A stretch of 22,269 bases of DNA from a virus. Both the position numbers and the translations under genes were made by a program. Below are positions 1,763 to 20,800 of the stretch, one piece after another. The notes under the pieces are model-generated. The model was not told the DNA's origin. It was given only the letters and a program-made list of their open reading frames with translations, and did no database searches. Numbering within the stretch: the stretch's first letter is position 1; every line of letters starts with the position of its first letter. The DNA lies in the IMG/VR virus record IMGVR_UViG_3300023116_000392, positions 1-22,269 of that record; one strand, written 5' to 3'.

Positions 1763-1766
1763 TATT

Positions 1767-1789: not shown

Positions 1790-1794
1790 ATGGA

Positions 1795-1802
1795 AATAAA
1801 TA
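1795..1802 (+). promoter_or_regulatory. T4-type late promoter AATAAATA
   Basis: AATAAATA differs from the T4 late consensus TATAAATA at one position. It stands alone without a -35, directly after a terminator and before a gene, as expected for sigma-gp55 promoters. The predicted start is near 1808, giving a leader of about 53 nt before ATG 1861. Confidence 0.75.
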
Positions 1803-1808
1803 GTCTTA

Positions 1809-1855: not shown

Positions 1856-1860
1856 CTAAA

Positions 1861-2112
1861 ATGGGACAATCACCTGTCGATAGAAACACTGAATATATGA
1901 GAGAGATGTGGGGAACCACTAAACTCATCTCAGATTATGGATCAATGCAACATAATGACCAAAAAAGAGTTCTGACAGAGGTGATGCACGATACTGCACC
2001 TCGTCATGATCTTAAAAAACAGACTGAATTACACGAAAAAATTCGTAATGACAATGATTATGATGATTGGGAGTATGGAACTGAGCCAAATTATGGTAAT
2101 CCTTGGATTTGA
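1861..2112 (+). CDS. 83-aa late protein, unknown function
   Basis: The product begins MGQSPVDRNTEYMREMWGTT and ends in an acidic, aromatic tail (NDYDDWEYG..NYGNPWI). It is hydrophilic and probably helical in the middle (DQKRVLTEVMHDTAPRHDLKKQTELHEKI), with no signal peptide or membrane segment. It has its own late promoter, a structured leader and an AGGAG site, and lies directly before gp25. Its timing should therefore be late and its role structural or assembly-related. Similar short proteins sit before gp25 in other cyanophages as far as I recall, but none has a function I can name. It could be a small baseplate or head decoration protein, or an assembly factor; this is inference from position only. 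Confidence 0.8.
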   Translation: MGQSPVDRNTEYMREMWGTTKLISDYGSMQHNDQKRVLTEVMHDTAPRHDLKKQTELHEKIRNDNDYDDWEYGTEPNYGNPWI

Positions 2113-2113
2113 A

Positions 2114-2121
2114 CATAAATA
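2114..2121 (+). promoter_or_regulatory. T4-type late promoter CATAAATA
   Basis: CATAAATA has one mismatch to TATAAATA. It begins 2 nt after the preceding stop codon and lies 23 nt before the gp25 start. The predicted start is near 2127. It is the likely entry point for the gp25-gp6-giant gene transcript. Confidence 0.78.
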
Positions 2122-2123
2122 AA

Positions 2124-2142
2124 GTCAAGAAAACTTCTTGAC
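2124..2142 (+). promoter_or_regulatory. Perfect 8-bp hairpin abutting the gp25 start codon
   Basis: GTCAAGAA (2124-2131) pairs perfectly with TTCTTGAC (2135-2142) around AAC, and ATG follows 2 nt later with no Shine-Dalgarno. The hairpin overlaps the predicted late start (~2127). A readthrough transcript would fold it fully, while a late transcript would lose the first bases of its 5' arm. This is the arrangement used by some T4 genes to restrict translation to late mRNA. Confidence 0.6.
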
Positions 2143-2144
2143 CA

Positions 2145-2546
2145 ATGGCAGTCACAAGGATATCAAGAGCATTTAAGGACATAAGTCTGTCTTTTGACCC
2201 ACACCCTGTGACAAAAGACCTTCCAATTCTTAAAAATGAGAATGCAATTCGTCGTTCAGTAAGGAATTTGGTCGAAACAATCCCAACAGAGCGTTATTTT
2301 AACCCTCTTTTGGGGTCTGATGTTCGATCAAGTCTCTTTGAATTCGTTGATTTTGGTACTGCATCCGAAATTGAGTCACAAATAGTGACTACTATTGAGA
2401 ATTTTGAACCAAGAGTGACAAATATCCGTGTTGATGTCAATCCTCAACCCGATGATAACACTTTTGAGGTCACAATTTTCTTTGATATTATCGGTCAAGA
2501 CTTTCCTGCTCAAGAATTTACGTTTTTACTAGAGGCAACCAGATAA
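2145..2546 (+). CDS. 25: gp25-like baseplate wedge protein
   Basis: 133 residues, essentially the length of T4 gp25 (132). The GPW_gp25 domain covers about residues 20-115. Its hallmark is KNENAIRRSVRNLVETIPTE at 30-49 followed by RYFNPLLGSDVRSSLFEF, the region that joins the wedge to the hub and sheath end. A strand-rich C-terminal half (TNIRVDVNPQPDDNTFEVTI) completes the fold. gp25 is the conserved sheath-initiating wedge component shared with contractile injection systems. It lies first in the wedge operon, 3 nt before gp6, under the late promoter at 2114. The start is fixed by the short spacing and full family length. Confidence 0.97.
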   Translation: MAVTRISRAFKDISLSFDPHPVTKDLPILKNENAIRRSVRNLVETIPTERYFNPLLGSDVRSSLFEFVDFGTASEIESQIVTTIENFEPRVTNIRVDVNPQPDDNTFEVTIFFDIIGQDFPAQEFTFLLEATR

Positions 2547-2549
2547 ACA

Positions 2550-4427
2550 ATGCCTTTTACCAAATATACAAACCTCGATTTTGACCAGATAAAGACCTCT
2601 ATCAAGGATTATCTCCGTGCAAACTCAAATTTCACGGATTTTGACTTTGAGGGGTCTAATTTTTCTGTCTTAATCGACACTTTAGCGTATAATACCTATA
2701 TTACGGCATTTAACTCGAATATGATTGTCAATGAATCCTTCTTGGATTCGGCAACATTGAGAGAAAATGTCGTTTCATTGGCAAGAAATATAGGATATGT
2801 ACCACGCTCTAGAAGCGCCTCTAAGGCAACTATAGATTTAGACGTAGAACTGAATGAAGATGCCTCAACATTGACCTTAGAAGCGGGTTTAGCGTGTGTA
2901 GGATCGGTATCTGACAGCAACTATGTCTTCTCAGTCCCAGAAAATATTACAACAACGGTAAATTCTAAAAAAGCAATATTTTCGAGCATCGATATCTATC
3001 AAGGATCCTTCGTAAGAAATTCTTTCGTCGTTGATGGATCACTAGATCAAAGATTTATTCTCAATAATTCATTCATCGACACCTCAACAATATCTGTTTA
3101 TGTAAAGGGAATCAATGATTCTGGACTAGGAAGACAATATAAACTTGTTGATAATATATTAAACTTAAATTCTTCTTCTGAAATTTACTTGATTCAAGAA
3201 GTTCAGGATGAGAAGTATGAATTATTCTTTGGTGATGGATATTTCGGTAAAAAGTTGGAAAATGGAGCAGTAATAACAGTTACGTATATTGTCACTGATG
3301 GAATTGAAGGCAATGGCGCATCAGATTTCTCATTCTCTGGAAGACTGACAAATTCATTGGGCAATATACCCAGTGTAAAAACAATATCAGTTTCTACAAT
3401 AAACAGTTCCTCCAATGGTGGAGAAATTGAAAGCGTTGACTCGATTAAATACTTTGCTCCAAGATTATATTCTTCACAATATAGAGCAGTCACTACCCGT
3501 GACTATGAATCTATCATTCAAATGATATATCCAAATACGGAGTCTGTATCTGTTGTTGGTGGTGAAGAATTAGATCCTCCACAGTTTGGAAATGTATTGA
3601 TTAGTATTAAACCAAAAAATGGAGATTATATTTCAGATTTTGATAAGGACAACATTACTTCAAAATTAAAAAAATATTCTGTTTCTGGAATCAATCAGCA
3701 AATTATTGATCTGAAGGTTCTTTACGTTGAAGTTGACACGGCAGTTTACTATAATAGCGCAGGTGTTTCAAATGTCAACGATTTGAAGACAAATATTATC
3801 ACCACTTTGAATACTTTTGCACGTTCTAATGTCAATATGTTTGGTGGAAGATTTAAATACAGCAAATTGTGCCAAACGATTGATAACGTTGATAATGCTA
3901 TCACATCAAATATTACTAGAATTAAAATTAGAAGAAATTTAAGAGCATCAATTAACCAGGCAACACAGTATGAGATTTGTTTTGGAAATAAATTCCATGT
4001 GAATAGTGGCGGTTTTAATATTAAGAGTACAGGATTTACTCTTGCCGGAAGAATAGGAACATTCTATTTCACAGATGTTCCTGGGACAAATGGAACTGGT
4101 GTTTTATCCATTGTTAAAGAATCTACTATTGAAGGCAAATATATTATAGAAATTAAATCGGCGGGAACAGTAGATTATGATAGAGGTGAGATTATAATTA
4201 ATACCTTGAATATTACATCAACTGAAAAGGATAATAATGTTATTGAGATTCAGGCATTCCCAGAGTCTAATGATGTCATCGGTCTGAAGGATCTTTATTT
4301 AAGTTTCTCAGTTGCCGATAGCAAGATAAATATGGTTAAGGATACTATTACATCTGGAGAACAGATATCCGGTGTCGGATATAAGACAACTTCTAGCTAC
4401 TTAAACGGAGAACTAAAGAGGGTATAA
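2550..4427 (+). CDS. 6: gp6-like baseplate wedge protein (Baseplate_J type)
   Basis: 625 residues (T4 gp6 is ~660). The N-terminal part (MPFTKYTNLDFDQIKTSIKD, then the helical 'LIDTLAYNTYITAFNSNMIVNESFLDSATLRENVVSLARNIGY') is the diagnostic gp6/Baseplate_J start. Around 224-255 comes LFFGDGYFGKKLENGAVI leading to 'YIVTDGIEGNG', and around 313-360 'TTRDYESIIQMIYPN' with 'VVGGEE..PPQFGNVLISIKPK', both Baseplate_J hallmarks. A C-terminal domain (~500-625) has the 'GTVDYDRGEIII' strand pair. gp6 forms the dimeric ring linking adjacent wedges and is the core of the baseplate iris. It is followed after 1 nt by the giant gene, so the two are probably translationally coupled and made in related amounts. 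Confidence 0.97.
   Translation: MPFTKYTNLDFDQIKTSIKDYLRANSNFTDFDFEGSNFSVLIDTLAYNTYITAFNSNMIVNESFLDSATLRENVVSLARNIGYVPRSRSASKATIDLDVELNEDASTLTLEAGLACVGSVSDSNYVFSVPENITTTVNSKKAIFSSIDIYQGSFVRNSFVVDGSLDQRFILNNSFIDTSTISVYVKGINDSGLGRQYKLVDNILNLNSSSEIYLIQEVQDEKYELFFGDGYFGKKLENGAVITVTYIVTDGIEGNGASDFSFSGRLTNSLGNIPSVKTISVSTINSSSNGGEIESVDSIKYFAPRLYSSQYRAVTTRDYESIIQMIYPNTESVSVVGGEELDPPQFGNVLISIKPKNGDYISDFDKDNITSKLKKYSVSGINQQIIDLKVLYVEVDTAVYYNSAGVSNVNDLKTNIITTLNTFARSNVNMFGGRFKYSKLCQTIDNVDNAITSNITRIKIRRNLRASINQATQYEICFGNKFHVNSGGFNIKSTGFTLAGRIGTFYFTDVPGTNGTGVLSIVKESTIEGKYIIEIKSAGTVDYDRGEIIINTLNITSTEKDNNVIEIQAFPESNDVIGLKDLYLSFSVADSKINMVKDTITSGEQISGVGYKTTSSYLNGELKRV
4417..4422 (+). promoter_or_regulatory. Shine-Dalgarno AGAGGG for the giant gene
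   Basis: AGAGGG lies 6 nt before ATG 4429, within the last codons of gp6. It supports this start and, with the 1-nt gap, suggests coupled translation of gp6 and the giant protein. Confidence 0.65.
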
Positions 4428-4428
4428 G

Positions 4429-7400
4429 ATGATAAAAACTGGATTTGAGACGAGGGTAAAAGTTCAGCAAATTATTGAGAACCAACTCCCAGAATTTTTA
4501 CGTTCTGAAAGTCCTAAGGCAATAGATTTTTTAAAGCAGTATTATATTTCACAGGAATATCAGGGTGGTCCAGTAGACATTGCTGATAACTTAGACCAAT
4601 ATTTGAAGATCGACAACCTCACACCAGAGGTTCTTTCTGGTTCTACAGATATTACTTCAAATATTTCTTCTAGTGTAGATACTATTCAGGTATCATCGAC
4701 TAAAGGATTTCCTGCTCAATATGGTTTATTACAGATTGATGATGAAATTATCACTTACACTGGAATTACAACCAACAGTTTCACTGGTTGTGTGAGGGGA
4801 TTTAGTGCAATTACCGATTATAGATCATCTTCAAACCCAGAAGAATTGGTTTTTAGCACATCTAGTGCAGCATCTCATACCTCAGGATCATCTGTAAAGA
4901 ATTTAAGTGTTGAGTTTTTAAAAGAGTTTTATAAAAAACTTAAATATTCTTTCACTCCAGGTTTAGAAAACGTTGATTTTGTATCTGACCTTGATGTAAA
5001 TAACTTTATAAAGGAATCAAGGTCCCTTTACGAATCCAAAGGAACAGAAGAATCTTTCAAAATTCTCTTCAAAGTTTTATATGGAATAACTCCTACAGTA
5101 GTCGATTTAGAGAATTACCTCCCAAAACCATCATCTGCAAGATTTTTAAGAAGAGAAATAGCAGTTGTTGAGGCAATTTCTGGCGATCCATTGAAACTGG
5201 TTGGTCAGACAATTAGAAAATCGACAGATTCGGAAACACAGGCATCAATATCTGAGGTTGAAATTTTCACCAGATCTGGTCTTAATAAGACATACTATAA
5301 GATTAGTCTGTTTGTAGGATACGATGATAACAATTCAATTCAAGGAACTTTTGTACCACAACCAAAAGTTTTAGCAATTAATCCAGTATCTGTTGGATCT
5401 AGTGTTATTACAGTCGATTCTACAATAGGATTTGCAGATTCGGGAACTTTAATTTCCGGCGACAACACACTGACATATACTGGAAAAACAATAAACCAAT
5501 TTTTAGGTTGTAGTGGTATTACTTCTATTATCAACGCAACTGATGAAATCAGATCTGATGAGTTTTACTATGGATATGAGAATGGTGACGTTACCAAAAA
5601 GGTAGAAGTTCGTCTAACAGGAGTACTGTCAGAATTTAATCTCATTAGTGATATTAAGTTGGCATCGGAAGGGCAGAAAGTTTTTGTAAATAATGTTGGT
5701 GAAAAGATTCTAAATCCCGATCAAAGCAAAACACATAAAGAAATTTTTGCAAATTCTTGGATTTATAATACAAGTGTTAGATTTGAAGTTGATAGTATTA
5801 GTGGATCCAATTTTGTTTTAAAGGGTATTCCAGATAAGTCTAATTTAAAAGTAGGTGATCATGTAGACATACTGTTAGGTTCTACTGAAAATATTGTTTA
5901 TTCAAATGCAGTTGTTTCATCTATATTTGAAAATCAAGTCTCACTCGGAAGTCTTACTGGATTTGTATATGATTCTACACTCGATTATTCCATTAGAAGA
6001 AATTTAAAAAAAGCAAAAAGTTCTTCTATTCCAATTCTTTATGGTAATGATGTAGTAACCTCCGATGTTCAAAATTTATATAATGAAAAGGATGAATATT
6101 TTTACGTAGCATCAAACTCACTTCCATCGTATACTATAACAACTGCAACAAATAAGGCAGTTATGTCATCTGGCGATATAAGTCTGTTTGATGGTTACAA
6201 TTCTGATACTAACAATTATTCAATCTTATCATTCCCCTCAAGTGTTCCATTTGTTAATGGTGATGAAATATACTATATTCCAGAAAATGATCCTATTACA
6301 GGTCTTGAAGAAGGTAGTTATTTCGTAAAAGTTTTATCTCCATCGAATAGAATCAAGCTCTATCTTTCAAGATCATTAATTATTAGTGACACGGCAGTAG
6401 AATTTTCCCCAATAACTACGTCTGGGAATCATACATTTATTTTGTATTCCCAAAAAGATCAATACATATATCCACAAAGAATCCTCAAAAAGTTTCCAAG
6501 TAACAGAACTATCAAACTTGGAAAAAATATTAGAACTATACCAGGAACTGTAGGAACTCTGGTAAACGGTGTTGATATTTTAAATTACAAATCACAAGAT
6601 AAGATCTACTATGGACCGTTAGATGAAGTTAAAATCTATAACGGAGGAGAGGATTATGACGTTATTAATCCACCATCTGTAGTAGTATCAAATCCAACTA
6701 GTGGAACTACATCTTTAGTAAGACCAGTATTAAAGGGATCTTTAAAAGAAGTCATTGTAGATCCACAAAATTTTGATATTAAAAGAATTTTATCAATAAA
6801 ATTAACTGGTGGAAATGGTATTGGTGCAAGATTTGAACCTGTTCTTCAAAGACGAAGGAGAGATTTTGAATTTGATGCTAGACCACATTATGCTGGTGGT
6901 GGAATAAACATTTATACTGATACAATTAAATTCTTAGATAACCACAATTTGGTTAGTGGTGAGCCATTGATTTATGACAATAATTCAAATGATTCTGTAG
7001 GCATTGGAACATATCTGGGTTCAAACTTAAATTTAGGAACCACTCTGAAAAAAGATACCTTATATTATCCAGAAGTTGTAAATGCAACAACTGTAAAATT
7101 ATATGCAACTCTCTCAGATTACACTGCTGGAATTAATACAGTAGGATTTACAACATCCAGTGCTCAGGGAATCCATAGATTAAGAACGTATGATATCAAA
7201 AATTCATTAAAGTCAATTAAGATCATCGATCCAGGTAGTGGATATCAAAATAGAAAATTAATTGTAAAACCTGAAAATGTATCTTACATTGAAGATAAAA
7301 TTAATTTTAAAAATCATGGTTTCAATGATGGCGATTTAGTAGTTTACACTACAGACGGGACTGAAATTGCTGGTTTGTCAACAGCATTGGATTATTATGT

Positions 7401-10400
7401 TATCAAAGAAGATGCTAATAACTTTAGATTAGCGGATGCTGGAATTGGTGGGACAATTACATCAAATTATACTAGAAAAAATTATGTAGATCTTTCCTCC
7501 TCTGGAACTGGATATCAAAATTTCTCATACAAACCAATCACATTGACGGTTGATGTTGAGTATGATGGGGTAGTAGGAGTCTTGACTGCAACTCCAATTA
7601 TTAGAGGATCAATAACAGATTTATATCTTTACGAAAAAGGAACTGGATATGGATCCAATGTATTGAATTTTGATAAAAAACCATCAGTATCTTTTAATAG
7701 TGGAAAAAATGCAGAACTGAATGCAATTGTTATTGGTGGAAAAATAGATAAAGTATTGGTAAGTAATTCTGGATCAGAATACACTTCAGCCCCAGATTTA
7801 GAAGTCTCTGGAAGTGGTATCGGTGCAAAATTACGTGCTGTTGTTTCTGATGGAAAAATAACAAATGTTATCATTGTAAATCAGGGCATTAATTATGGAA
7901 ATGATACTGTAATTAAGGTTATTCCAAATGGAAAGAATGCTTTTGCAATTCCTACCATAAGAAGCTTAACGGTCAACAATGTTTCTAGATTCAATACGAA
8001 TGAAATTATTATAGACAATGTATCCAATGAGGAAGGACAAGGATATGCTTTATGTGGATACACAACAAGTATTGTTAGTGATTTTAATGATAATGGATCT
8101 ACACATTCCCCAATAATTGGTTGGGCAATCGATGGAAATCCAATTTATGGACCTTATGGATATAGTGATCCAGATAATTATAGTTCTAAAATTAAAGTTA
8201 TACGACCAGGATATGTATTATCACCTTCCAGTGTAATTGATAGACCTTTAGGATTTACAAATGGATTCTTTATTGAAGATTATGTCTACAACAATTCTGG
8301 AGATTTGGATCAATATAATGGTAGATACTGTAAGACCCCAGAATTTCCTAATGGTGTGTATGCATACTTTGCTGGAATTTCTTCAACAACTTTCAATTCA
8401 CAATTCCCATATTTTATTGGAGATTCATACAAAGCATTACCAGTAACTCAAGAATTAAATCAAGATTTTGATTTCAATAATTCTAATTTAATCAGAAATA
8501 CATTCCCATATGGCGTTGCTGAAAGATATTCAAATAATGATTTCATAATAGAACCCTATGAGATTAAGGAGCAAACCTTAGTTATTGATTCTGTAACTAA
8601 GGGAAGTGTTACAAAATTAACTATAAATGAAGAAGGAAGCGATTATGCTGTCGGAGATTCTTTAGTATTTGATAATACTGACACAAATGGATCTGGATTG
8701 ACTGCAGATGTAAAATCTGTATTAGGTAAAACAATAACAGATATTACAACTACAACTGAAACACATCAATCTGCAAAGGTAGTTTGGAGAGACCAGAATA
8801 CAGTTTCTTTACATATTGATCCATCTAACAATATCATCAACAATGATAGTGTTGTTGTTTCTGGTTTATCAACCTTTATTGACGGATTATCAAAATCACA
8901 TATTGCTGGAATTTCTTCTGCTAAGGTCTATCTCTTAAAAGAAGTATCTTCAAACGCAACAGCAGGTGTTGTAACAGATATCTATGTCTCTAGTATCCCA
9001 GTAACAGTATCTACAGGATCTACAATTGCCATTGGAACTGAGAGAATGTCAGTTCTTAATGTATTTGAAAGTGAAAAGGTAATAAGAACAGTAAGAGGAA
9101 CTGTCGGATCTGCTCATACAGCATCAACTGAAGTTACTGTATATGATGGAAAAATTACTCTACCAGTATCTGTTCCATATTTTGAATCAAGACTCAATGA
9201 TAAGGTATACTTTAATCCATCACAATCATTAGGAATTGGAACCCAGACTGGTATATCCTCTTCATACAATTATGTCATTGGCGATAGAACTCTTTCAATA
9301 TCTGTTCCAAACCAAAGCATATATCTTCCAAACCACCCATTCAAAACTTCTCAAGCAGTAACACTTGAAATTGTAAGCGGTATCAATACTATTTCGGTAT
9401 CAAATACTGAAACAAGTTCAATATTTACTATTCCATCCAATGGAACCTCACAGACACTATATGTAATTAACAAGTCGAAAGATTACATTGGTCTAACAAC
9501 ACAAGTTGGTCTGACAACAAATACTGATGGATTGTATTTCAGATCTTTCGTTTCGAACGGTAGCGATGAAGACTACAAGTATTCCTTAGAATCTAACTAC
9601 ACGCAAGTTACTGGAAAGGTTGAGAAACTTCAATCAGTTGTCTCAGTATCTACATCACATTTACTGAATACTGGCGATGTAATTAATTTGAAAGTAAACT
9701 CAAATAGATCTATAGGTGTTGGAGACTCCACCGCCATTTATGTAAAATATAATGGCGACTATAATAAACTTTTAATAAATCCAATAGGATTTACATCCTC
9801 TGATATTTCAACAACATCAAATATTATCACTTTATCTAATCACAAGTTAAAAACTGGCGATAAGGTTTTCTATAGTTCTGTTGGAGACGTTGCTAGTGGT
9901 CTCACCACTGGATCATATCATGTATACAGAATTGATGATAATCAAATTAGATTAGGTAAAACTTTAATAGATGTTAAACAGTATCCATTGTCTTTAATCA
10001 GTATTGGATCTACTGGTGGATCATCTCAAGAAATTTCTTTAATTAATCCAAGAATTTCCGTAATTAGAAATAATGATCTTGTATTTGATCTCTCAAATTC
10101 ATCTCTTAATGGATATGATTTCAAGATCTTTGAAGATAGTGATTTCTACAACAAGTTAGATTCTACAGGATCATCTTCCACATTCAATGTAATAGGCGTT
10201 GGAACGGTTGGCGTATCTACCAATGCATCACTCACGTTGAATTATAGTGAATATTTACCAGAAAAATTATATTATGCACTCGAAAATGGCGGTTATATTA
10301 GCACTGCTGATAAGGACATCCCAAATAATAATGAAATTTTATTTGAAAATAGTGTTTATGATGGATCATATGTTATTTCTGGTGTTGGAACCACAACGTT

Positions 10401-13400
10401 TACCATCTCACTGAAGTCTTTACCAGAAACTTTAAATTATACTCAAGATAATACCGATGTTTTAAAGTATTCCACATCTTCTGCAAGCGCCAGAGGCGGT
10501 GTTTCTGAAATTAAAATTATTGATAGGGGACTTAATTACAAAAAACTTCCAAAATTTGTAAGTATCGCATCAACTCAAGGAACGGGTGTTGATATTACTC
10601 CAGAATCTACAAATATTGGAAGAATAAATGAGGTAACAATTCTTGATCAAGGATTTGATTTCTCTTCAGATAAGACATTAAACCCACAGGCATACGTATC
10701 ACCAAGAATTTCAATATCCAACAGAGATTATGTTGTCGATATTCAAATTACATCTGGTGGATCAAATTATACGTCTGCTCCAGATTTGGTTGTAGTAAAT
10801 CCAGAAACTGGTGAAGCATATCAAAGTGGTATTTTGGAGGCAAGTATTCAGGGGTCATCAATTTCCTCCGTGAATATTGTAGAACCTGCAACTGGATTGG
10901 CAAATATAGTTAATAAGGTATTCGCAACAAACAATACCAACGGAATTGGTATTAATAGTTGTTTGTCTTCAAGTTCTGGAGTTGTAACTTGCATATTGAA
11001 TACACCAATCTTAGGATTTAGCACTAATGCATTTAATGTTGGTGATAGGGTCTTTGTTGAAAATATAGAAAAATTGGGATCATCTGGAGATGGATTTAAT
11101 TCACCAGATCTCGGATATAAGTTTTTTGATGTTACCGCATACAGAAATACAAATCCAGCAGAGGTTGAATTTAATATTTCAGAATATACTTCAAATCCAG
11201 GTATAGCTCTTACCAGTCAAACAACATCCTTTGCATCTATAATTAAAGAATCAAATTATCCAACATTTAATGTAATTCAAGATTCGCAAGAATTTAATAT
11301 TGGAGAATTCTTATTTGTTCAAAAAAATGGATCATATATTGAAACTGATCTGATTATTACTGAAAGTATAAACAATCAAATAAAGGTATATGGTTCTTAT
11401 CAACTGACAAAAAATGAGGTTGTTATTGGAAAAGATTCTGGAACTAAAGCAACTATAAGTTCCATAGAAGAAAATAAAGCATCATTTACCATTGATTACT
11501 CTCTGAGAAAAGATATAGGATGGTCTGACGACGTTGGAAAGTTAAACTTAGATACACAAGTTTTACCAGACAATGATTACTATCAAAATCTTTCTTATAC
11601 AATTAAGAGTCCAATAACTTATGATGAGCAAATAAATCCTGTAAATAGACTTCTGCATACATCAGGTCTCAAAAATTTCGCAGATACTGCAATAATACAA
11701 TCTGTTAAAGCAGGAATTGGAACTGGAATACAGGCGTCTGCAGTTGCAGTTGTTGATGTATCTTCCGAAAGAAGAGTTGATACAATAAATGCATTTGATT
11801 TAACTGTCGATATTGATGTAGTTGGACCAAAATCTAAGTTTTTACAATTTGAAAATAAAAAATTAACGGATTATATTGATTGTGTAACTAACAAAGTTTT
11901 AATACTTGATAATGTAAATTATGAATTTTCAAGCAATGATTCCACTAATGACTTATACACTGATGTGCATGAGTATGATATTGAAAGTAAGTATAACAGA
12001 TTCTTAGTTCAGGTCATCAATCCAAATAACAATGAAAGACAATCTACAGAAATAATAACACTGCCAACAGCAACTGGAAATGTAATAACGGTTCAAAAAG
12101 GATCTGTATATTCTACTGCCAATGAGATTTGTGATTTAGTGGCAAATATTTCCCCTGCTGATGAATTATCTCTGAGATTTACTCCAGAAGAAAAATATGA
12201 TTTTGATTATGATATTAAAGTTATAAAGAATAGTTTCACATCTTCATTGTCTGGAAGCACTGGTTCAGAATCTGTTGGTTTTGTCAATCTTACAGGATCT
12301 AATGTTTCTGTTGGTATTGGATCAACACAACCAATAATCAGCGTAGCATCTGCATCTAACGAAGGTTTATTCTTAAATGTTGAGGTTGAAAATACCAGCA
12401 ATGATTCAATCAATTATGTTGAATTATATGTTGATCATAATGGAACAGATACTTTTATATCTGAATTGTCTTTCAATAACGATGATTCCAGTATATCAGC
12501 AGGTAACTTTATAGGATCTTTTGGAGCAAATATAGATTCTGGTATTTTGTCAATAAATTACACCAACAATGAATCTTCTGATGTATTCCTCAGATCAAAA
12601 ATTGTTGGATTTGGAGCAACTTCTTCTGGTATTGGAACATACAGATTCTTATCTCAGGATCAACCATCTGGATCGGAAAATACTGCTAGACTTCAAAGCA
12701 ATTTTATAAATTCGTCTGGAGTATCGACAGTATTTACAGTATCTTCAAGTGATGTTACAACAATTAAGTCGGTAGCAAAAGTTGGATATGGTAATACTTC
12801 AGCATTACACCAATTTATAGTTATTCATGACGAAACAAATTCTCATATTGTCCAGTATCCATTTATGTCAAATGGTAGCAAAACTGGAATAGGAACATTT
12901 GGGTCAAATCTCAATGGAACTGATTTAAGTATAGAGTTCTTCCCAGATGCTGGTATAACTGATTCTATTACGATTCAAACTTATAGCGAAATAATTCAAA
13001 CAGAAACTGACATAGTTAATATTCCAAAACCTTTAACATATGGAAGTGTAACTGAAAATCTTTTAACAGCATTTTATAATGCTATCAATGGTGATAGAGT
13101 TAATAAGACTAGTTTTGAAGCAAAAACTTCTGGAATACCAGTATTTGAAAAATCATTTGATCCTGATGGAGCATTAAACTTAGCAACTGGAACATTTACG
13201 GTCAATAATCATTTCTTTAGCACAGGAGAAGAATTAATCTATGAGTCTGGATCATCGTTCACTGGAATAGCGTATAGTGATATTCAAGTATCTGGTGCGG
13301 GAAATCTTCCATCAAATGTTTTTGCTATCAAACTGAATGATAATCAATTCCAATTGGCAACTACTAGATCTGATGCAAATTCTGGAACAGGAATTACATT

Positions 13401-16302
13401 TAGTTCCTATGGAAGTGGAAATGCTCATACTTTGGAAATGTTTAAAAAGATGGAAAAATCCATCATCACCATTGATGGTATTGTCCAAAGTCCAATTGCG
13501 TATACTAACGTATCATACACCTTACAAGATAATGGTGGAACAGTCGGATCTGCTGCAACATACTTTGCTGTTTCAGGAATTTCTTCGATTATACCTGGTG
13601 ATATTTTAAAAATTGATGATGAATATATTGAAGTTGAATCTGTAGGTCTTGGAACAACTTCTTTAGGTCCAATTACAGGATCTGGATCTTTTAATATCAT
13701 TAAAGCAGGAAGAGGATTTGTTGGATCTTCAGCAACTACACATACAGATGGAACTGAGGCAAGAATTTATCTTGGTTCATTTAATATTGTAGACAACAAG
13801 ATACATTTTACAGATCCTCCTAGAGGAAATAGCAGTGAAATTAGAGATGATGGAAATCTTTTATATGAGAGATCTGATTTCTCCGGAAGAGTTTATTTGA
13901 GACAAGATTATGAAACAAATAAGATTTATGATAATATTTCGAAGTCATTTACTGGAATTGGTCAAACATATCAATTGACAGTTGGTGGTGCAAATACAAC
14001 AGGTATTGAAACTGGAAGTGGTGTTCTCTTTATTAACAATATCTTCCAAACACCAACTACGCAAAATAATTCAGGAAATAACTACGATTATGCAGAAAAT
14101 TCTGGAATAACAAGTGCAATTTTTACTGGAATATCAACCTCTGGTGGAATTTTAATTTCAGATTATGACGTTAACCAAAATCAACTTCCAAGAGGAGGAA
14201 TAATTGTTTCTCTTGGATCAACACCAGGATTGGGGTATGCACCTCTTGTAGGAGCGTCTGTGACCGCTGTAGTTGGTGCTGGAGGATCAATCGTATCAGT
14301 CGGTCTTGGAACAACAGATAGAGTCGGTTCTGGATACAATGGAATAGTTTCTATTGGTGTATCTGTATTCGAAAGTGGTCATATTGGCGATGTTGCATCA
14401 ATCACCGCAAATGTTGGTGCTGGTGGAACATTATCATTTGTAGTCGGATCTGGTGGAACTGGATATACAAGTCCATCTATATTAGTTTCTCCACCATCTT
14501 ATGAAAATCTTCAAATAACTGGCGTTTCAAGACTTGGAGTTGGATCTACTACAGATACTGGAACTGGTTTATTGTTATCGGTTGATGTTGGATCCAGTTC
14601 AACAACTGGAATTGGATCAACCATGTATGAAGTTAAAAACTTCAAAATCACTAGACCTGGATACGGATTCCAAGTAGGAGATGTATTTAAACCAGTTGGA
14701 TTGGTTACTGACAAAAATCTTTCTTCACCAGTAGAAGATTTTGAACTTACAGTTTTAGATACATTTACAGACTCCTTCTCATCATGGCAATTTGGAGAAC
14801 TGGACTTTATTGATTCAATTAAAGATTTACAGGATGGATTAAGAGTCAGATTCCCACTTTACTATAATTCACAACTGTTGAGTTTTGAGACCAGTCAGCC
14901 TGGATTTGATATGAATTCAGTTTTGCTGATATTCATAAATGGAGTTATCCAAGAACCAGGAGAAGCATATACTTTTAGTGGTGGAACATCTTTCAGATTT
15001 ACTGAGGCTCCTACAGATGAAGATATAGTTGATATATTCTTCTACAGAGGAACTAGAGGTGTTGATAGTAAACTTGAAAATGTGATAGAAACCATAAAAA
15101 TTGGCGATTCTGTCCAGGTTCGTAGAAACAACAATATACCAAATACTATCGAACAAGAAAATAGACTGGTCATCGGTATTTCTTCTTCAAGTGTAGAGAC
15201 AAACCTTTACAGTGGAGCTGGAATTGATGATGTAAATTATAAACCAACTGATTGGATAAAGCAGAAAAAAGATTATATCATCGGTCAAGAGATTGTAACA
15301 AAATCTAGAGATTCTATTGAACTTCAAGTATACCCAACAGCAAAAGTAATTGGCGATCTTACAACATCAGATACTGAAATATTTGTTGATGATGCCCAAT
15401 TCTTCAATTATGAAGAAAATGAATCTGCAATTACAATTCTCAATGTTGATGGAATTATTATTCAAGAACAGGATCTAATTCCTGCAAATATTAGTGCTAA
15501 CGTTTCTTCTGGTGGAACAATTAGTTCTTTAACGATCAATGATGGTGGATCTGGATATTCTTCAGGTTCAGTAAGTATATCTATTGCACCTCCAAAACAC
15601 ATATATGTTGGTCTTGGAACAACTTCTGGTCTTGGTATTGGCGTAACTGCAACAGCAACTGGAACTATTGGCGCTGGAGGATCTATAACTTCAGTATCTA
15701 TTGTAAATCCAGGAGCTGGATATAGTGTTTCAAATCCACCAAAAGTATTGGCACCAGATCCCAGTATTTCTTATGAAAGAATAACAAACATCAGTGACGT
15801 TCAGGGATTCTCTGGCATCGTTACTGGAATTGGAACAACCACTGGAACGGGTGGTAATCCTTTGGCAATTAAGTTTAATTTGAATTCTTCAGATATGAAT
15901 GGCGATCTTGCAGTTGGATATCCAATTTTGATCTATGATACCGCAGTTGGATCTGGCGTAACCTCTATTGATGATAGCGATTCTAACTTGGTTGGAATCG
16001 GAACAACATTTGCCGACAACATTTATTTGATACAGTCAATTTCCATAGCATCTACAAGTGCTGAGATTGTTGCTAATGTATTATCTACAACAAATATAAT
16101 TGGTTTGTCTACTGTCGGATTCTCAACAAATCCTGTAGGTAAATTCTCTTGGGGTAGATTATCAGGGTTCTCAAGATCCACTTCACCAATCTCTATTGGG
16201 GTAACTGGATTAGTTGTTGATTCTGGATTATCAACATTCCCAACAATTCAGAGAAGAGGATATGGACTGCGTGATAATGGATCCTTGAGAAAGGATCTGT
16301 GA
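4429..16302 (+). CDS. Giant (3,957-aa) gp7-like baseplate wedge protein with repeat modules and a YHYH domain
   Basis: This uninterrupted frame fills the slot T4 uses for gp7, between gp6 and gp8. Residues 1-60 (LPEFLRSESPKAIDFLKQYY) begin the core. Residues 200-219 (LYESKGTEESFKILFKVLYG) closely match T4 gp7 'YSTKGIEASYKFLFKVLYN', and LVGQTI at 257-262 matches again. The next gp7-like piece, DNDYYQNLSYTIKS then 'LLHTSGLKNF', is at ~2381-2417. Between and after lie repeated modules: at least 15 'GxGY(T/S)sxP'-type beads (for example Y743, Y939, Y1118, Y2114, Y3346, Y3710, Y3765), several 'NHxF/LxTGDxVxY' units (~838, 961, 1804, 2927), a YHYH domain at ~1215-1350, and an 'IDGIVQSP' module near 3010. 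T4 gp7 has about 1,030 residues, so this is almost four times longer. No signal peptide or membrane segment is seen. Expected location: outer baseplate, possibly reaching the host surface. The gene is certain; gp7 descent is likely. Confidence 0.8.
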   Translation: MIKTGFETRVKVQQIIENQLPEFLRSESPKAIDFLKQYYISQEYQGGPVDIADNLDQYLKIDNLTPEVLSGSTDITSNISSSVDTIQVSSTKGFPAQYGLLQIDDEIITYTGITTNSFTGCVRGFSAITDYRSSSNPEELVFSTSSAASHTSGSSVKNLSVEFLKEFYKKLKYSFTPGLENVDFVSDLDVNNFIKESRSLYESKGTEESFKILFKVLYGITPTVVDLENYLPKPSSARFLRREIAVVEAISGDPLKLVGQTIRKSTDSETQASISEVEIFTRSGLNKTYYKISLFVGYDDNNSIQGTFVPQPKVLAINPVSVGSSVITVDSTIGFADSGTLISGDNTLTYTGKTINQFLGCSGITSIINATDEIRSDEFYYGYENGDVTKKVEVRLTGVLSEFNLISDIKLASEGQKVFVNNVGEKILNPDQSKTHKEIFANSWIYNTSVRFEVDSISGSNFVLKGIPDKSNLKVGDHVDILLGSTENIVYSNAVVSSIFENQVSLGSLTGFVYDSTLDYSIRRNLKKAKSSSIPILYGNDVVTSDVQNLYNEKDEYFYVASNSLPSYTITTATNKAVMSSGDISLFDGYNSDTNNYSILSFPSSVPFVNGDEIYYIPENDPITGLEEGSYFVKVLSPSNRIKLYLSRSLIISDTAVEFSPITTSGNHTFILYSQKDQYIYPQRILKKFPSNRTIKLGKNIRTIPGTVGTLVNGVDILNYKSQDKIYYGPLDEVKIYNGGEDYDVINPPSVVVSNPTSGTTSLVRPVLKGSLKEVIVDPQNFDIKRILSIKLTGGNGIGARFEPVLQRRRRDFEFDARPHYAGGGINIYTDTIKFLDNHNLVSGEPLIYDNNSNDSVGIGTYLGSNLNLGTTLKKDTLYYPEVVNATTVKLYATLSDYTAGINTVGFTTSSAQGIHRLRTYDIKNSLKSIKIIDPGSGYQNRKLIVKPENVSYIEDKINFKNHGFNDGDLVVYTTDGTEIAGLSTALDYYVIKEDANNFRLADAGIGGTITSNYTRKNYVDLSSSGTGYQNFSYKPITLTVDVEYDGVVGVLTATPIIRGSITDLYLYEKGTGYGSNVLNFDKKPSVSFNSGKNAELNAIVIGGKIDKVLVSNSGSEYTSAPDLEVSGSGIGAKLRAVVSDGKITNVIIVNQGINYGNDTVIKVIPNGKNAFAIPTIRSLTVNNVSRFNTNEIIIDNVSNEEGQGYALCGYTTSIVSDFNDNGSTHSPIIGWAIDGNPIYGPYGYSDPDNYSSKIKVIRPGYVLSPSSVIDRPLGFTNGFFIEDYVYNNSGDLDQYNGRYCKTPEFPNGVYAYFAGISSTTFNSQFPYFIGDSYKALPVTQELNQDFDFNNSNLIRNTFPYGVAERYSNNDFIIEPYEIKEQTLVIDSVTKGSVTKLTINEEGSDYAVGDSLVFDNTDTNGSGLTADVKSVLGKTITDITTTTETHQSAKVVWRDQNTVSLHIDPSNNIINNDSVVVSGLSTFIDGLSKSHIAGISSAKVYLLKEVSSNATAGVVTDIYVSSIPVTVSTGSTIAIGTERMSVLNVFESEKVIRTVRGTVGSAHTASTEVTVYDGKITLPVSVPYFESRLNDKVYFNPSQSLGIGTQTGISSSYNYVIGDRTLSISVPNQSIYLPNHPFKTSQAVTLEIVSGINTISVSNTETSSIFTIPSNGTSQTLYVINKSKDYIGLTTQVGLTTNTDGLYFRSFVSNGSDEDYKYSLESNYTQVTGKVEKLQSVVSVSTSHLLNTGDVINLKVNSNRSIGVGDSTAIYVKYNGDYNKLLINPIGFTSSDISTTSNIITLSNHKLKTGDKVFYSSVGDVASGLTTGSYHVYRIDDNQIRLGKTLIDVKQYPLSLISIGSTGGSSQEISLINPRISVIRNNDLVFDLSNSSLNGYDFKIFEDSDFYNKLDSTGSSSTFNVIGVGTVGVSTNASLTLNYSEYLPEKLYYALENGGYISTADKDIPNNNEILFENSVYDGSYVISGVGTTTFTISLKSLPETLNYTQDNTDVLKYSTSSASARGGVSEIKIIDRGLNYKKLPKFVSIASTQGTGVDITPESTNIGRINEVTILDQGFDFSSDKTLNPQAYVSPRISISNRDYVVDIQITSGGSNYTSAPDLVVVNPETGEAYQSGILEASIQGSSISSVNIVEPATGLANIVNKVFATNNTNGIGINSCLSSSSGVVTCILNTPILGFSTNAFNVGDRVFVENIEKLGSSGDGFNSPDLGYKFFDVTAYRNTNPAEVEFNISEYTSNPGIALTSQTTSFASIIKESNYPTFNVIQDSQEFNIGEFLFVQKNGSYIETDLIITESINNQIKVYGSYQLTKNEVVIGKDSGTKATISSIEENKASFTIDYSLRKDIGWSDDVGKLNLDTQVLPDNDYYQNLSYTIKSPITYDEQINPVNRLLHTSGLKNFADTAIIQSVKAGIGTGIQASAVAVVDVSSERRVDTINAFDLTVDIDVVGPKSKFLQFENKKLTDYIDCVTNKVLILDNVNYEFSSNDSTNDLYTDVHEYDIESKYNRFLVQVINPNNNERQSTEIITLPTATGNVITVQKGSVYSTANEICDLVANISPADELSLRFTPEEKYDFDYDIKVIKNSFTSSLSGSTGSESVGFVNLTGSNVSVGIGSTQPIISVASASNEGLFLNVEVENTSNDSINYVELYVDHNGTDTFISELSFNNDDSSISAGNFIGSFGANIDSGILSINYTNNESSDVFLRSKIVGFGATSSGIGTYRFLSQDQPSGSENTARLQSNFINSSGVSTVFTVSSSDVTTIKSVAKVGYGNTSALHQFIVIHDETNSHIVQYPFMSNGSKTGIGTFGSNLNGTDLSIEFFPDAGITDSITIQTYSEIIQTETDIVNIPKPLTYGSVTENLLTAFYNAINGDRVNKTSFEAKTSGIPVFEKSFDPDGALNLATGTFTVNNHFFSTGEELIYESGSSFTGIAYSDIQVSGAGNLPSNVFAIKLNDNQFQLATTRSDANSGTGITFSSYGSGNAHTLEMFKKMEKSIITIDGIVQSPIAYTNVSYTLQDNGGTVGSAATYFAVSGISSIIPGDILKIDDEYIEVESVGLGTTSLGPITGSGSFNIIKAGRGFVGSSATTHTDGTEARIYLGSFNIVDNKIHFTDPPRGNSSEIRDDGNLLYERSDFSGRVYLRQDYETNKIYDNISKSFTGIGQTYQLTVGGANTTGIETGSGVLFINNIFQTPTTQNNSGNNYDYAENSGITSAIFTGISTSGGILISDYDVNQNQLPRGGIIVSLGSTPGLGYAPLVGASVTAVVGAGGSIVSVGLGTTDRVGSGYNGIVSIGVSVFESGHIGDVASITANVGAGGTLSFVVGSGGTGYTSPSILVSPPSYENLQITGVSRLGVGSTTDTGTGLLLSVDVGSSSTTGIGSTMYEVKNFKITRPGYGFQVGDVFKPVGLVTDKNLSSPVEDFELTVLDTFTDSFSSWQFGELDFIDSIKDLQDGLRVRFPLYYNSQLLSFETSQPGFDMNSVLLIFINGVIQEPGEAYTFSGGTSFRFTEAPTDEDIVDIFFYRGTRGVDSKLENVIETIKIGDSVQVRRNNNIPNTIEQENRLVIGISSSSVETNLYSGAGIDDVNYKPTDWIKQKKDYIIGQEIVTKSRDSIELQVYPTAKVIGDLTTSDTEIFVDDAQFFNYEENESAITILNVDGIIIQEQDLIPANISANVSSGGTISSLTINDGGSGYSSGSVSISIAPPKHIYVGLGTTSGLGIGVTATATGTIGAGGSITSVSIVNPGAGYSVSNPPKVLAPDPSISYERITNISDVQGFSGIVTGIGTTTGTGGNPLAIKFNLNSSDMNGDLAVGYPILIYDTAVGSGVTSIDDSDSNLVGIGTTFADNIYLIQSISIASTSAEIVANVLSTTNIIGLSTVGFSTNPVGKFSWGRLSGFSRSTSPISIGVTGLVVDSGLSTFPTIQRRGYGLRDNGSLRKDL
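6637..7900 (+). repeat. Cluster of GxGY bead repeats (protein-level) in the giant gene
   Basis: Within residues ~738-1156 the pattern G-x-x-Y followed by a hydrophobic strand recurs: NGGEDYDV, DPGSGYQN, SGTGYQNF, KGTGYGSN, NSGSEYTSAPDLEV and NQGINYGN. Each is followed by a strand and often by 'GxGxGA(K)LxAxVxxGKIxxVxIxNxG'. Further copies lie near 1406, 2037, 2114, 3303, 3346, 3412, 3710 and 3765. The DNA is diverged between copies, so the repeats are old or under protein-level selection. Confidence 0.75.
8077..8455 (+). other. YHYH domain inside the giant protein
   Basis: Around residues 1217-1342 the protein reads 'HSPIIGWAIDGNPIYGPYGY', then an arginine-containing link, 'FFIEDYVYNNSGDLDQYNGRY', 'TPEFPNGVYAYF' and 'FPYFIGDSYKAL'. 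These are the ordered hallmarks of the YHYH family, which is found in secreted and phage structural proteins. The name-giving Y-H-Y-H tetrad is not visible in the segment just before (QGYALCGYTTSIVSDFND), so any metal-binding or enzymatic role tied to it may be lost. Its role in phage virions is not established. Confidence 0.85.
13645..15627 (+). repeat. VGLGTT micro-repeat with an exact 18-nt DNA match
   Basis: GGTCTTGGAACAACTTCT occurs identically at 13645-13662 and 15610-15627, and its first 14 bases recur at 14302-14315. They encode GLGTTS in the same frame. The pattern G-(I/V/L)-G-(T/S)-T is scattered through the giant protein from about residue 860 to 3860. Confidence 0.6.
16280..16297 (+). 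other. Hairpin with GAGA tetraloop in the last codons of the giant gene
   Basis: GATCCTT (16280-16286) pairs with AAGGATC (16291-16297) around GAGA, a GNRA-type loop. The stop codon follows 2 nt later. There is no T-run, so a full terminator is unlikely; it could stabilise the 3' end of the giant mRNA or slow readthrough before the next promoter. Confidence 0.5.
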
Positions 16303-16332: not shown

Positions 16333-17877
16333 ATGGCGGCAATTGTAACAGATCAGTTTAGAATATTAAACGCTAGTAACTTTTTAGATTCAGTTAATGA
16401 TGCTTCTAATTCATATTATGTTTTTGTAGGTCTACCAAATCCAAAATCATCTGGATTTGGTAGAGATGCTGATTGGGATACCAATACACCAATACCAACA
16501 GATAATGATGAATATTTGAATTTTGTTGGTAGTGTTTCCATGTATGGAAAAAAAGTAACTTCTTCTAATGTAAGAAGACTAGCAAGAAAAATTGATTGGA
16601 ATAGTGGAACTCGATACGAAATGTATCGTCATGATTATAGCATAAACAATTTGTCACCACTGACAAAATCTTCTAGACTTTATGATTCAAACTATTATGT
16701 TGTAAATAGTGAATATAAAGTATACGTATGTATAGATAACGGTTCATCAGGAATCAATACACTTGGTAATGCATCTTTGGATGAACCCGCGTTTACAGAT
16801 TTGGAACCATCCAAGGCTGGTCAAAGTGGCGATGGATATGTATGGAAATATCTTTACAGTATTTCGCCATCAGATATCATCAAATTTGATTCTACCGAGT
16901 ATATTACTCTACCAAATGATTGGAGCACATCAACAAATACGCAAATATCTGCAGTTAGAGATAATGCAAACTCGGATGATAATGATAATCAAATAAAGAA
17001 AGTATATATTGAAGATCAAGGAGTTGGATACTCAACCGGATCTCATGAACTTGATATAATTGGTGATGGATCTGGAGCCAAAGTTGTTGTTGATGTTGAT
17101 ACATCAGGAAGAATAACAAATACTTTAGTATCTGCTGGCGGAAAAAATTATACTTATGGAATAGTTGATTTGGGTTCAATTAGCAATACAGTATCTGTAA
17201 ATGCAAAATTAATCCCAATAATTCCACCATCCAAAGGTCATGGATATGACCTATACAAGGAACTTGGATCGGATAAAGTATTACTATATGCTAGATTTGA
17301 TGATTCAACAAAAGATTTCCCAACGGATACTTCACTGTCACAAATTGGTGTAGTGAAAAATCCAACATCAATTGGATCAACTCAAATATTTACTGATAAT
17401 CAATATTCATCGTTGGGAGCATTAAAATTCTTAAGTGTAACAGGCACACCAAGTGTTGGAGATGTCATTTCTCAGTCTGTCACTAATGGAACTGCTAAGG
17501 CATATGTTGCTTCATATGATAGTGAAACTAAGGTTGTAAAATACTTCCAAGAAAGAAGTTTATTCTTGAATCAAACAACATACGATACTACTGACTATGT
17601 TGGTGTATCTACGGATGCTTATTCATATGAATTTGAATCAACTACAAATAATGTAACATCATCAACTTTCGTTGGAACAATTGACACCGGGTTTACCGGT
17701 ATCACAACAAATCCAACTGGAAACAAAGTAATTTCTTTAGGATCAGTATTTACAAATGGAATTGCTTCTCCTGAGATAAATAAAGGGTCGGGAGATATAA
17801 TTTATCTTGATAATCGCCCAGTGATCCCTAGGAATTCTAGACAAAAAGAAGACGTTAAAATTATCCTGGAATTTTAA
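16333..17877 (+). CDS. 8: gp8-like baseplate wedge protein with inserted modules
   Basis: 514 residues against 334 in T4 gp8. The N-terminus (AAIVTDQFRILNASNFLDSV) corresponds to T4 'AIVTSKFRTEKMLNFYNSI'. ARKIDWNSGTRYEMYRHDYS matches 'IPRRDWGDTRYPDPYTFRIND', GDGYVWKYLYSI (166-177) matches 'GDGYVWEYLFEI', and IYLDNRPVI near 490-498 matches 'IYMENRPPI'. The family end 'KEDVKIILEF' is present. gp8 is a dimeric wedge protein that joins gp7 and gp10 in T4. The extra length comes mainly from residues ~217-290, two GxGY-type beads like those of the giant protein (DQGVGYSTG; GGKNYTYG), and from ~370-465, a 'GDVISQSVTNGTAKAYV' module. It starts 19 nt after a perfect late promoter and is followed after 3 nt by the next gene. 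No strong Shine-Dalgarno is visible. Confidence 0.92.
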   Translation: MAAIVTDQFRILNASNFLDSVNDASNSYYVFVGLPNPKSSGFGRDADWDTNTPIPTDNDEYLNFVGSVSMYGKKVTSSNVRRLARKIDWNSGTRYEMYRHDYSINNLSPLTKSSRLYDSNYYVVNSEYKVYVCIDNGSSGINTLGNASLDEPAFTDLEPSKAGQSGDGYVWKYLYSISPSDIIKFDSTEYITLPNDWSTSTNTQISAVRDNANSDDNDNQIKKVYIEDQGVGYSTGSHELDIIGDGSGAKVVVDVDTSGRITNTLVSAGGKNYTYGIVDLGSISNTVSVNAKLIPIIPPSKGHGYDLYKELGSDKVLLYARFDDSTKDFPTDTSLSQIGVVKNPTSIGSTQIFTDNQYSSLGALKFLSVTGTPSVGDVISQSVTNGTAKAYVASYDSETKVVKYFQERSLFLNQTTYDTTDYVGVSTDAYSYEFESTTNNVTSSTFVGTIDTGFTGITTNPTGNKVISLGSVFTNGIASPEINKGSGDIIYLDNRPVIPRNSRQKEDVKIILEF

Positions 17878-17880: not shown

Positions 17881-20800
17881 ATGCCACAGAAAACGAATCT
17901 CAATATAAGTCCATATTATGACGATTTTGATAAAAATGATAATTTCTACAGGGTTTTATTTAAACCAGGGCACCCTATTCAAGCTAGGGAATTAACGGCT
18001 TTACAATCAATTCTACAAAATCAAGTAGAATCATTTGGAAGTCATATGTTTAAAGAGGGATCAATGGTGATCCCTGGAAATATTAACTATGATTCTGAAT
18101 ATTATTCGGTAAAAATAAATCAGGAGCATCTTGGAATTGATGTTACTGTTTATGCGGATTATTTGGTAGGAAAAAGAATTAGGGGAGCGGCATCAGATAT
18201 TGTTGCGGTAGTAGATAAGTATCTAACGCCAGAAGATTCTGATGATATTACCGACGTAACATTATTTGTCAAATATTTAAGTTCTGGAACTGGAAATAAT
18301 ATTTCTTATTTTGAAGATGGTGAAATTCTTATCACGGATGAGTCATTCACTTATGGTAATACCACTATCAGTAGTGGAGATACTGTAGCATCTCTTATTG
18401 CACAAAATGCTTGCTATAGAGGATCTTCTGCCTCAGTAGGCGAAGGTGTTTATTTTATCAGAGGCACTTTTGTACAGGTATCATCAGACAAATTAGTTCT
18501 TGATCCATATTCATCCTTCCCCTCATATAGGGTTGGTCTATCAATTTATGAGGAACTCGTCACAGCAAAAGACGATCCTTCACTTTATGATAATGCTAAA
18601 GGTTTTTCAAATTACTCAGCACCGGGTGCAGATAGATTAAAAATATATACAAAATTATCTAAGAAAAGTTTAGATGATTATAATGATAAAAACTTTGTAG
18701 AACTTCTTAGAGTTGATAACGGTGAAATTAAAAAATTACAAAATAAATCTGAATACAGTATAATCAGGGATTATTTTGCCAAGAGGACTTATGAAGAGTC
18801 TGGAGATTATTCTGTTGGTAAGTTTGATATTGAGGTAAAAGAGTCTTTAAATAATAATCTTTCAAATGGAGGTGTATTTACATCCTCACAGTCTACCGAA
18901 CAAGGTAATACCCCATCGGATGATTTAGCTTGTGTAAAAGTATCGCCAGGAAAAGCATATGTTAGGGGATACGATATTGAATCTGTAGGAACAACTATAT
19001 TAGACGTAGAAAAACCAAGAGATAAAGAAACGGTTTCGCAATCTTTAATTCCTTTTGAATTTGGTACTCTACTTAGGGTTAATAATGTTTCAGGATCTCC
19101 ATTTATTGGATTAAACAACAACTATAATACAGTTAAATTATATAATCAAAGAAAATCATCAACATCTTCAGGAACTGGAAATTTAATTGGTGAAGCTAGA
19201 ATTTATTCTTTTAGTTTGACTGATGCTGCATATGTGGATGCAACCACAGAGTGGGATTTATATCTATTTGATGTTCAAACATATACTACCATCGTTATAA
19301 ATACATTCACCGATATTAGTAAGTCTAGTCTAATTCGAGGAGAAAGTAGTGGTGCTACAGGATATACAGTATCTAACAGCACTGGAAACGTTATAACTTT
19401 GACTCAAACCTCAGGATCTTTTATCCCAAATGAGAGATTAACTGTATCTGGAAGAACAGATTTAAATTTGGCGATATCTCCATCTACAACTTCGATTACT
19501 TCTTATGGCGTTGAAGATATAAAATCAGTATATCAAGATTCTACATCATTATCTTCGGAGTTAAAAGTAGATTTTGGAGCAGATACTGTTCTTCAAAGAA
19601 AATTACCAAAAGGTTTTGGCATAGCAGATAATATCTCAATTACTGCTGCAGGTAATGTAACATCTCCCGGTAAGAATTTTAGTGATATAAAAGTTGGTTC
19701 AATAATTAGATATCAAACATCCGGTTTATCTACAGAATCTTATAATAGAGTTACTTCTGTTTCAGCAGATGGATCTTCTATGATTGTTTCTGGCGTTCCT
19801 GGTGTAAGTGGTGTTTGTCATGGACCACTACCTTCAGGAACAGTGACAGTTCCATTTTCTATAGGATATCCAGAAGTTAAAAATTCTGGAGGATTGTATT
19901 CAAAACTATCTTCGGATAATATTTCTTCCGTAAATCTTTCTGGATCAAATATAACTATCAATAGTCAACTTAGAGAACAAACTACAGATGTTAATGGAAG
20001 AACTACATTATCCATTCCAACTGGAATAACAAGTGCATTCTTTGAAACTTTTGATCCAGAAAGATATTCTGTATTTTATGCGGATGGATCTATTGAAGAT
20101 TTAACTTCGGATCAATTTACTTTAAGTTCGGATGGGACTTCAGTAACTTTATCTGGTCTTACCCCATCACAATCTAGTAATGTAACTGTAAATGTCACTC
20201 TAAGAAAGAATGGCATTAGAAATAGAAAAAAAGAATATACAAGAAGTTCTAAAATAGTTGTAAATAAAAATATTTCTGGATTTTCTACAAGTTTGTCTGG
20301 ATTGACAACGAGCACTGTTTATGGACTTAGAGTTGAAGATAAAGAAATTTCTTTAAATACTCCCGATGTTGTAAAAGTTATTGCAATACATGAATCATAT
20401 GATTCAAATCCATCAACATTAGATTCACTTAGTTTCCCATCAGGTCTTGGTTTAGACACCAATTCGATTCTTGGGGAGAAGATTATTGGTAGAGATTCAA
20501 ATGCAATTGGTCAAATTGTAACTAGATCATCAGCAACTTCTGTTGAGTTTGTATATTTGAATTCTAATGATTTTATTCCTGGAGAAACTGTTGTTTTTGA
20601 AGAATCTAATATCATAACAACAATACAAACAATTACAATCGGAAATTATCAGGATATTACTAATAAATTTAACTTAGATAAGGGTCACAAAGATCAATAT
20701 TATGATTATTCCAGAATTGTAAGAAAGAATAATCAATATATTCCATCCCACCAACTGCTGGTAATCTTCGATCACTATACTGTTCCATCTGATGATAATG

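Follow-up and report, generated by a model that had tools for sequence, protein, structure and literature searches.

The DNA analysed here, a virus record of 22,269 bases that we refer to as the window, contains the wedge cluster of a T4-like cyanophage whose nearest annotated relatives are the Synechococcus phages S-SKS1 and S-SRM01. The features of this locus are collected in Table 1. The genes follow each other in the order gp25-gp6-gp7-gp8-DUF4815/VrlC, as they do in related phages, and the gp7 of T4 (the baseplate wedge initiator; PDB 5iv5, 5hx2 and 9f4a; phrog_964) is likewise located between gp6 and gp8. The gp7 position of the window is occupied by one unbroken and very large ORF, referred to below as the giant ORF, which is matched by phrog_2885 (baseplate wedge subunit) at 3,847 bits, with residues 2-3294 aligned on positions 2-3335 of the 4179 in the profile. 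The gp6-like protein encoded immediately upstream is the predicted partner of the gp7 core described below.

Table 1. Genes of the window and component parts of the giant ORF. Coordinates are window positions and residue numbers are those of the giant ORF.
Feature	Coordinates	Strand	Size or residues	Evidence
gp25-like baseplate wedge protein	2145..2546	+	133 aa	PF04965 GPW_gp25 E 3.5e-13; phrog_261 E 4e-54
gp6-like baseplate wedge protein	2550..4427	+	625 aa	PF21379 E 3e-18; T4 gp6 phmmer E 3.5e-41
gp7-core giant wedge protein	4429..16302	+	3,957 aa	phrog_2885; core profiles; position between gp6 and gp8
Core piece 1, N-terminal core helices	4429..4620	+	1-64	compact-gp7 profile 6-59 on residues 11-64; hhalign A4 vs A3
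Insert site 1, beta domain	4621..4923	+	65-165 (~100 aa)	gap in profile match
Core piece 2, KGT helices and start of domain V with LVGQTI	4924..5358	+	166-310	profile 62-183 on residues 166-294, E 2.5e-13; T4 729-791
Insert site 2, repeated beta modules and YHYH domain	5359..11526	+	~311-2366 (~2,055 aa)	distance between core matches; internal repeats
Insert block containing the YHYH domain	7588..8730	+	1054-1434	colinear BLASTP chains
YHYH domain	8086..8394	+	1220-1322	PF14240 E 1.3e-25
Insert part similar to first half of ~285-aa pelagimyophage gp7 insert	8566..8802	+	about 1380-1458	phmmer, down to E 1.5e-9
Insert part similar to second half of pelagimyophage gp7 insert	10474..10938	+	2016-2170	phmmer, down to E 7e-8
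Core piece 3, DxYYQxxSYxIKS..HPxGF strand-helix	11527..11718	+	2367-2430	compact-gp7 profile on 2375-2429, E 3e-12; giants-only profile to T4 865-890
C-terminal extension, repeated beta modules	11719..16302	+	2431-3957 (1,527 aa)	internal repeats
gp8-like wedge protein	16333..17877	+	514 aa	PF09215 E 3.7e-14; T4 gp8 phmmer E 2e-10
DUF4815 baseplate protein, VrlC position	17881..22269	+	runs off window end	PF16075 E 5e-60

An earlier note on this DNA proposed that a gp7-like protein is split here by one insertion of about 2,100 residues, and it named four motifs in support, all of which were found at the residues it gave: SKGTEESFKILFKVLYG (203-219), LVGQTI (257-262), DYYQNLSYTIKS (2383-2394) and LLHTSGLKNF (2408-2417). 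Its statement that T4 gp7 carries such elements near its C-terminus in the same order is also borne out, the counterparts being STKGIEASYKFLFKVLYN (736-753), LVGQTI (781-786), SYYVMKIKS (860-868) and FVHPVGFGF (882-890). LVGQTI and the last group are 73 residues apart in T4 gp7 but 2,120 apart in the giant ORF. The single insertion, however, is only part of the picture. An insert of ~2,055 residues is indeed present at site 2, but there is a second site of ~100 residues as well as a long C-terminal extension, and these two features, together with the core piece at residues 11-64, were absent from the earlier note.

The link was provided by compact phages. With the C-terminal segment as query, a search reached Pseudoalteromonas phage XG4, in which the protein at the gp7 position has 419 residues and both motif groups, and its relatives yielded smaller gp7-position proteins from phages of Stenotrophomonas, Pseudomonas, Rhizobium, Xanthomonas, Caulobacter, Ochrobactrum, Pelagibacter and others. 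Profiles built from these compact phages, without T4 and without any cyanophage giant, matched the giant ORF at E 4e-22 (N-terminal part) and E 3e-12 (C-terminal part), our script E-values being computed for a nominal 1,000 sequences; the matches cover residues 11-64, 166-294 and 2375-2429 and are colinear. In T4 gp7 the same profiles matched 644-830 and then 865-890, an order that agrees with the giant ORF. Profiles made only from cyanophage giants reached T4 gp7 directly at 730-758 (E 2e-7) and, more modestly for the C-terminal half, at 865-890 (E 8e-4), while reversed-ORF decoys for these profiles gave best values of E 0.21 and 1.2 for the two halves. An hhalign comparison of the window-family alignment with T4 gp7 aligned exactly the KGT and LVGQTI elements (T4 729-791), and alignment A4 against the compact alignment A3 gave P 99.6% for the N-terminal helices and the KGT part. 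In a profile search of the PDB with seven compact forms (alignment A2), gp7 alone scored below E 0.3 (1.5e-8 and 2.1e-8). Both segments of the giant ORF thus match consecutive parts of the C-terminal region of gp7, as the earlier note had anticipated, and the profile and hhalign comparisons returned no better match to another family. Sequence comparison shows that the core of the giant ORF is homologous to, and colinear with, T4 gp7 from about 644 to 890.

Simpler searches barely detect this relationship. When employed as a lone query, T4 gp7 finds the giant ORF at E 0.098, which may be why the connection has been overlooked. BLASTP of residues 1-404 against T4 gp7 produced weak and partly misplaced matches, so that profiles were needed. 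A phmmer search of the PDB with the whole giant ORF gave no relevant match, and Pfam and NCBIfam gave none above their cut-offs for its core. Indeed, PF23786 (Baseplate_wedge), whose gathering score of 27 bits is passed by the compact relatives, reached only 13.8 bits on the whole ORF and 18 bits on residues 1-404, and the giant ORF is not filed under this family for that reason. As a side observation, TIGR02242 (phage tail protein domain) scored 25.6 bits on phiM12 gp7, below its cut-off of 51.85, a hint of a link between that gp7 and the TIGR02242 tail family.

Structure prediction was carried out on both forms of the core. The model of the L185 protein, a natural, insert-free compact core of 296 aa (pLDDT 70), has gp7 chains as its sole PDB matches below E 1e-3 (E 3e-11 to 2e-8, best 2.8e-11, over ~300 columns), with wedge proteins of a Streptomyces CIS, of diffocin and of phage Mu far below them; the low TM-scores (0.26-0.33) and an rmsd above 20 Å leave the overall arrangement of the domains unconfirmed. 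For residues 1-345 of the giant ORF the AF2 model is of low quality (pLDDT 58), although gp7 is again its top PDB match, at E 1.2e-3. Folding-together of the core halves was viewed on the compact homologue model only, at moderate confidence.

T4 gp7 and the giant ORF share, in the same order, the helical core, the KGT motif, the start of domain V with LVGQTI and the HPxGF strand-helix, whereas T4 residues 1-640 and 906-1032 have no equivalent in the giant ORF, which for its part has ~100 residues at site 1, ~2,055 at site 2 and the extension of 1,527. A profile of T4 gp7 1-640 (T4+nt-1) found no match at E 10 in the window proteins tested; hence the N-terminal absence that the earlier note had put at ~700 residues holds, at ~640. 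A profile of 906-1032 (domain VI) found nothing in the C-terminal extension, its best match in the window (E 2.7) being to another ORF. The Pfam families Gp7_helical, Gp7_5th and Gp7_6th, all of which match T4 gp7, were without a match on the giant ORF at E 1.

The closest relatives of the giant ORF in core sequence are the compact gp7-type wedge proteins (PF23786) of phages OC, pf16, Moby, Cr30 and XG4 and of contig L185, which have the same core and synteny. These are proteins of 419-767 aa in which site 1 is unsplit and domain V is separated from the final strand-helix by 9 to about 460 residues. In SRB7757, OC and L185 the site-2 spacing is 9-22 residues, that is, no insert is present, and these natural insert-free gp7 proteins at the same gene position uphold the view that gp7 has been split by insertion. 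(A scan of viral contigs with the SRB7757 gp7 as query gave no match.) The gp7 proteins of pelagimyophages and Methylophilales phages (Mosig, 874 aa; Melnitz, 896 aa) have both sites filled, as has the giant ORF, with a site-2 insert of ~285 residues that is about one seventh as long as that of the giant and lacks a Pfam YHYH match. At the other extreme, the cyanophage giants of P-SSM2 (5,195 aa), P-SSM4 (7,312 aa) and Syn9 (6,076 aa), all of phrog_2885, have the same split core at the same position and are longer than the 3,957-aa ORF of the window. Across 212 ORFs with both cores, a sample shaped by the queries used and not a census, the site-2 spacing ranges from 9 to 2,731 residues; 37 of them carry both cores in one frame at a spacing of 2,040-2,120, nearly all on independent metagenomic contigs, which rules out an assembly artefact.

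The inserts themselves are related. Matches to the giant ORF at E < 1e-3 were obtained for 75 of 159 short and middle-sized inserts, compared with none to the reversed giant protein. The pelagimyophage insert of ~285 residues is homologous to two separate parts of the giant insert (Table 1) and is thus found split within it; in the search with all 159 inserts this type mapped to residues 1384-1470 and 2016-2170. Both matches occur in 28 inserts; they are colinear in all 12 of the 28 that were listed, and the median query coordinates of all 28 follow the same order. Block 1054-1434 is additionally shared by S-RSM4 and S-CREM2, which show no match to residues 362-1054 in BLASTP chains; it is also present in P-HM1, Syn9 and P-SSM4, with a slightly different start in some of these phages. 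The YHYH domain occupies the same place in the two relatives tested, S-SRM01 and DSL-LC03, and the chains for S-SRM01, Syn9 and P-SSM4 reveal a spine of the insert that is colinear with the giant ORF. The layers amount to 285, then ~1,500-1,630 and then ~2,070 residues. Since the site-2 lengths vary and the split pelagimyophage insert lies inside the giant one, repeated beta modules were most likely added in nested steps to give the giant insert. A tree of the core columns requires two changes for the giant state, and the small forms X1 and Moby, which sit on a long branch, fall beside P-HM1. Given this placement, and because the tree comes from a quick search and has long branches, it neither proves nor dismisses that the giant state arose once.

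The site-1 domain, which is absent from T4 and from compact gp7, is predicted to be mostly beta (pLDDT about 60-85 at residues 71-126, lower at 127-143), and its residues 79-142 resemble residues 320-381, the first module of site 2 (E 1.5e-6). Residues 218-276 of the gp8-like protein resemble residues ~1103-1160 of the gp7 insert (E 9e-4), so that wedge proteins of this phage have a beta module in common. In the giants of P-SSM4 (L003, 5145-27083) and Syn9 (L004, 8763-26993) site 1 contains ~600 residues as against about 100 here. In two gp7 proteins of pelagimyophage type (L021 and L016) residues ~50-150 form a site-1 insert with 'GExIxGxxSGATA'-like stretches resembling domain V, and, as judged by alignment only, this insert is unlike the site-1 domain of the giant ORF.

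How these findings relate to the published record requires some care. The earlier note stated that gp7 is usually regarded as missing from cyanophages. This is true of two papers, one of which says that cyano- and pelagimyophages lack gp7 and have VrlC in its stead (PMC7029224) and the other of which assigns it to the non-cyanophage core (PMC3037559), but many database records name the ORF gp7 or 'baseplate wedge initiator', among them those of P-SSM2, P-SSM4, P-HM1 and S-SSM7, and these names are also used for relatives in papers. One survey lists the P-SSM4 giant as the largest bacterial-virus protein (PMC8553790). Relatives have furthermore been detected in virions by mass spectrometry: ORF122 of S-CREM2, which both of our core profiles match, with 91 peptides (PMC10665884), and S-SZBM1_208, a 6,619-aa 'baseplate wedge initiator' likened to the giant by name, with 71 peptides (PMC9146016). 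Names and virion detection were thus already known. The papers searched, which included little of the subscription literature, contain no account of the split core, the compact series or the nested inserts and no published argument for the database name, for which core homology now supplies the evidence.

If VrlC had replaced gp7 in these phages, as PMC7029224 states, the giant ORF would be a fibre-like structural protein unrelated to gp7, and both the annotation of the Syn9 giant as a 'putative fiber' and the faint signal of the simple T4 gp7 search would fit. The core profiles, however, match the giant ORF with high significance but miss the DUF4815 protein: on the part of it within the window they reached E 1.9 or worse, and VrlC was rejected as a holder of the gp7 core. 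Moreover, phages with a smaller gp7 (for example DLP6, Mosig and phiM12) carry the gp7 core beside a large VrlC-position protein. At the level of sequence, the colinear match of the core speaks strongly against replacement by VrlC, which we consider highly improbable, and the findings correct the published claim for cyano- and pelagimyophages.

A different order of events is that the long insert is ancestral and was lost by T4 and the other compact forms. An unrooted count of changes does not distinguish gain from loss, but short forms occur throughout the tree, including the T4-like outgroup and BUCT-ZZ01 near it, with the giants nested, and the layered inserts fit accretion, which makes ancestral length improbable. 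Slightly less probable still is cleavage of the giant after synthesis, with the core halves separate or loosely associated and the insert released or placed elsewhere. The peptide coverage of the virion-detected relatives, a mere 13-27% (PMC9146016, PMC10665884), leaves room for this, yet neither an intein nor a protease domain was found in the giant ORF by Pfam or PHROG scans.

We therefore favour, with a probability of roughly 0.85, the reading in which the giant ORF is the cyanophage form of gp7, with a split but colinear core that presumably joins gp6, and an insert grown in nested steps. In T4, gp7 is a monomer of the wedge, whose assembly follows a strict order listed as gp11, gp10, gp7, gp8, gp6, gp53 and gp25, and one domain of gp7 is bound by the N-terminal domain of gp9 (PMC3004832). 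The giant protein would be the wedge subunit that partners two chains of gp6, its three core pieces presumably forming a single gp7-like fold in contact with gp6. Less certainly, the insert and the extension, including the YHYH domain, may project outward as a peripheral arm; the module content makes a multi-domain arm plausible. Such an arm could take over peripheral tasks, namely the holding of fibre or receptor-contact proteins, which in T4 belong to the missing N-terminal half of gp7 and to gp10-gp12. A bolder version, which we put forward tentatively and consider rather unlikely, is that gp7 in cyanomyoviruses constitutes the baseplate periphery itself, the nested inserts of a core loop forming a fibre- and receptor-bearing arm so that one chain performs the work of the T4 gp7 N-terminal half and of gp10, gp11 and gp12. 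The insert is a candidate for the peripheral baseplate parts that these abundant marine viruses lack. More generally, the findings illustrate how proteins of 4,000-7,000 residues can arise, a single loop of a conserved tail protein taking up one insertion after another while intermediates persist in other phages.

Three minor observations concern individual records. Synechococcus phage BUCT-ZZ01, which infects S. elongatus and is classified in Kyanoviridae, encodes a 607-aa compact gp7 (L019, 5977-7800), so a cyanobacterial host need not go with a giant gp7. In Ochrobactrum phage OC (L020, 6091-7974) the gp6-position protein is annotated 'T4-like gp7' with a note identical to that of the next ORF; the gp7 core is found in that next ORF, and the label is probably an annotation slip. 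Finally, the first kilobase of the window has a G+C content of 0.47, as against about 0.30-0.40 elsewhere, and among the listed matches of window positions 1-4428 to phage DNA none begins before base 323; positions 1-400 may possibly represent a contig-end chimera or a foreign stretch.
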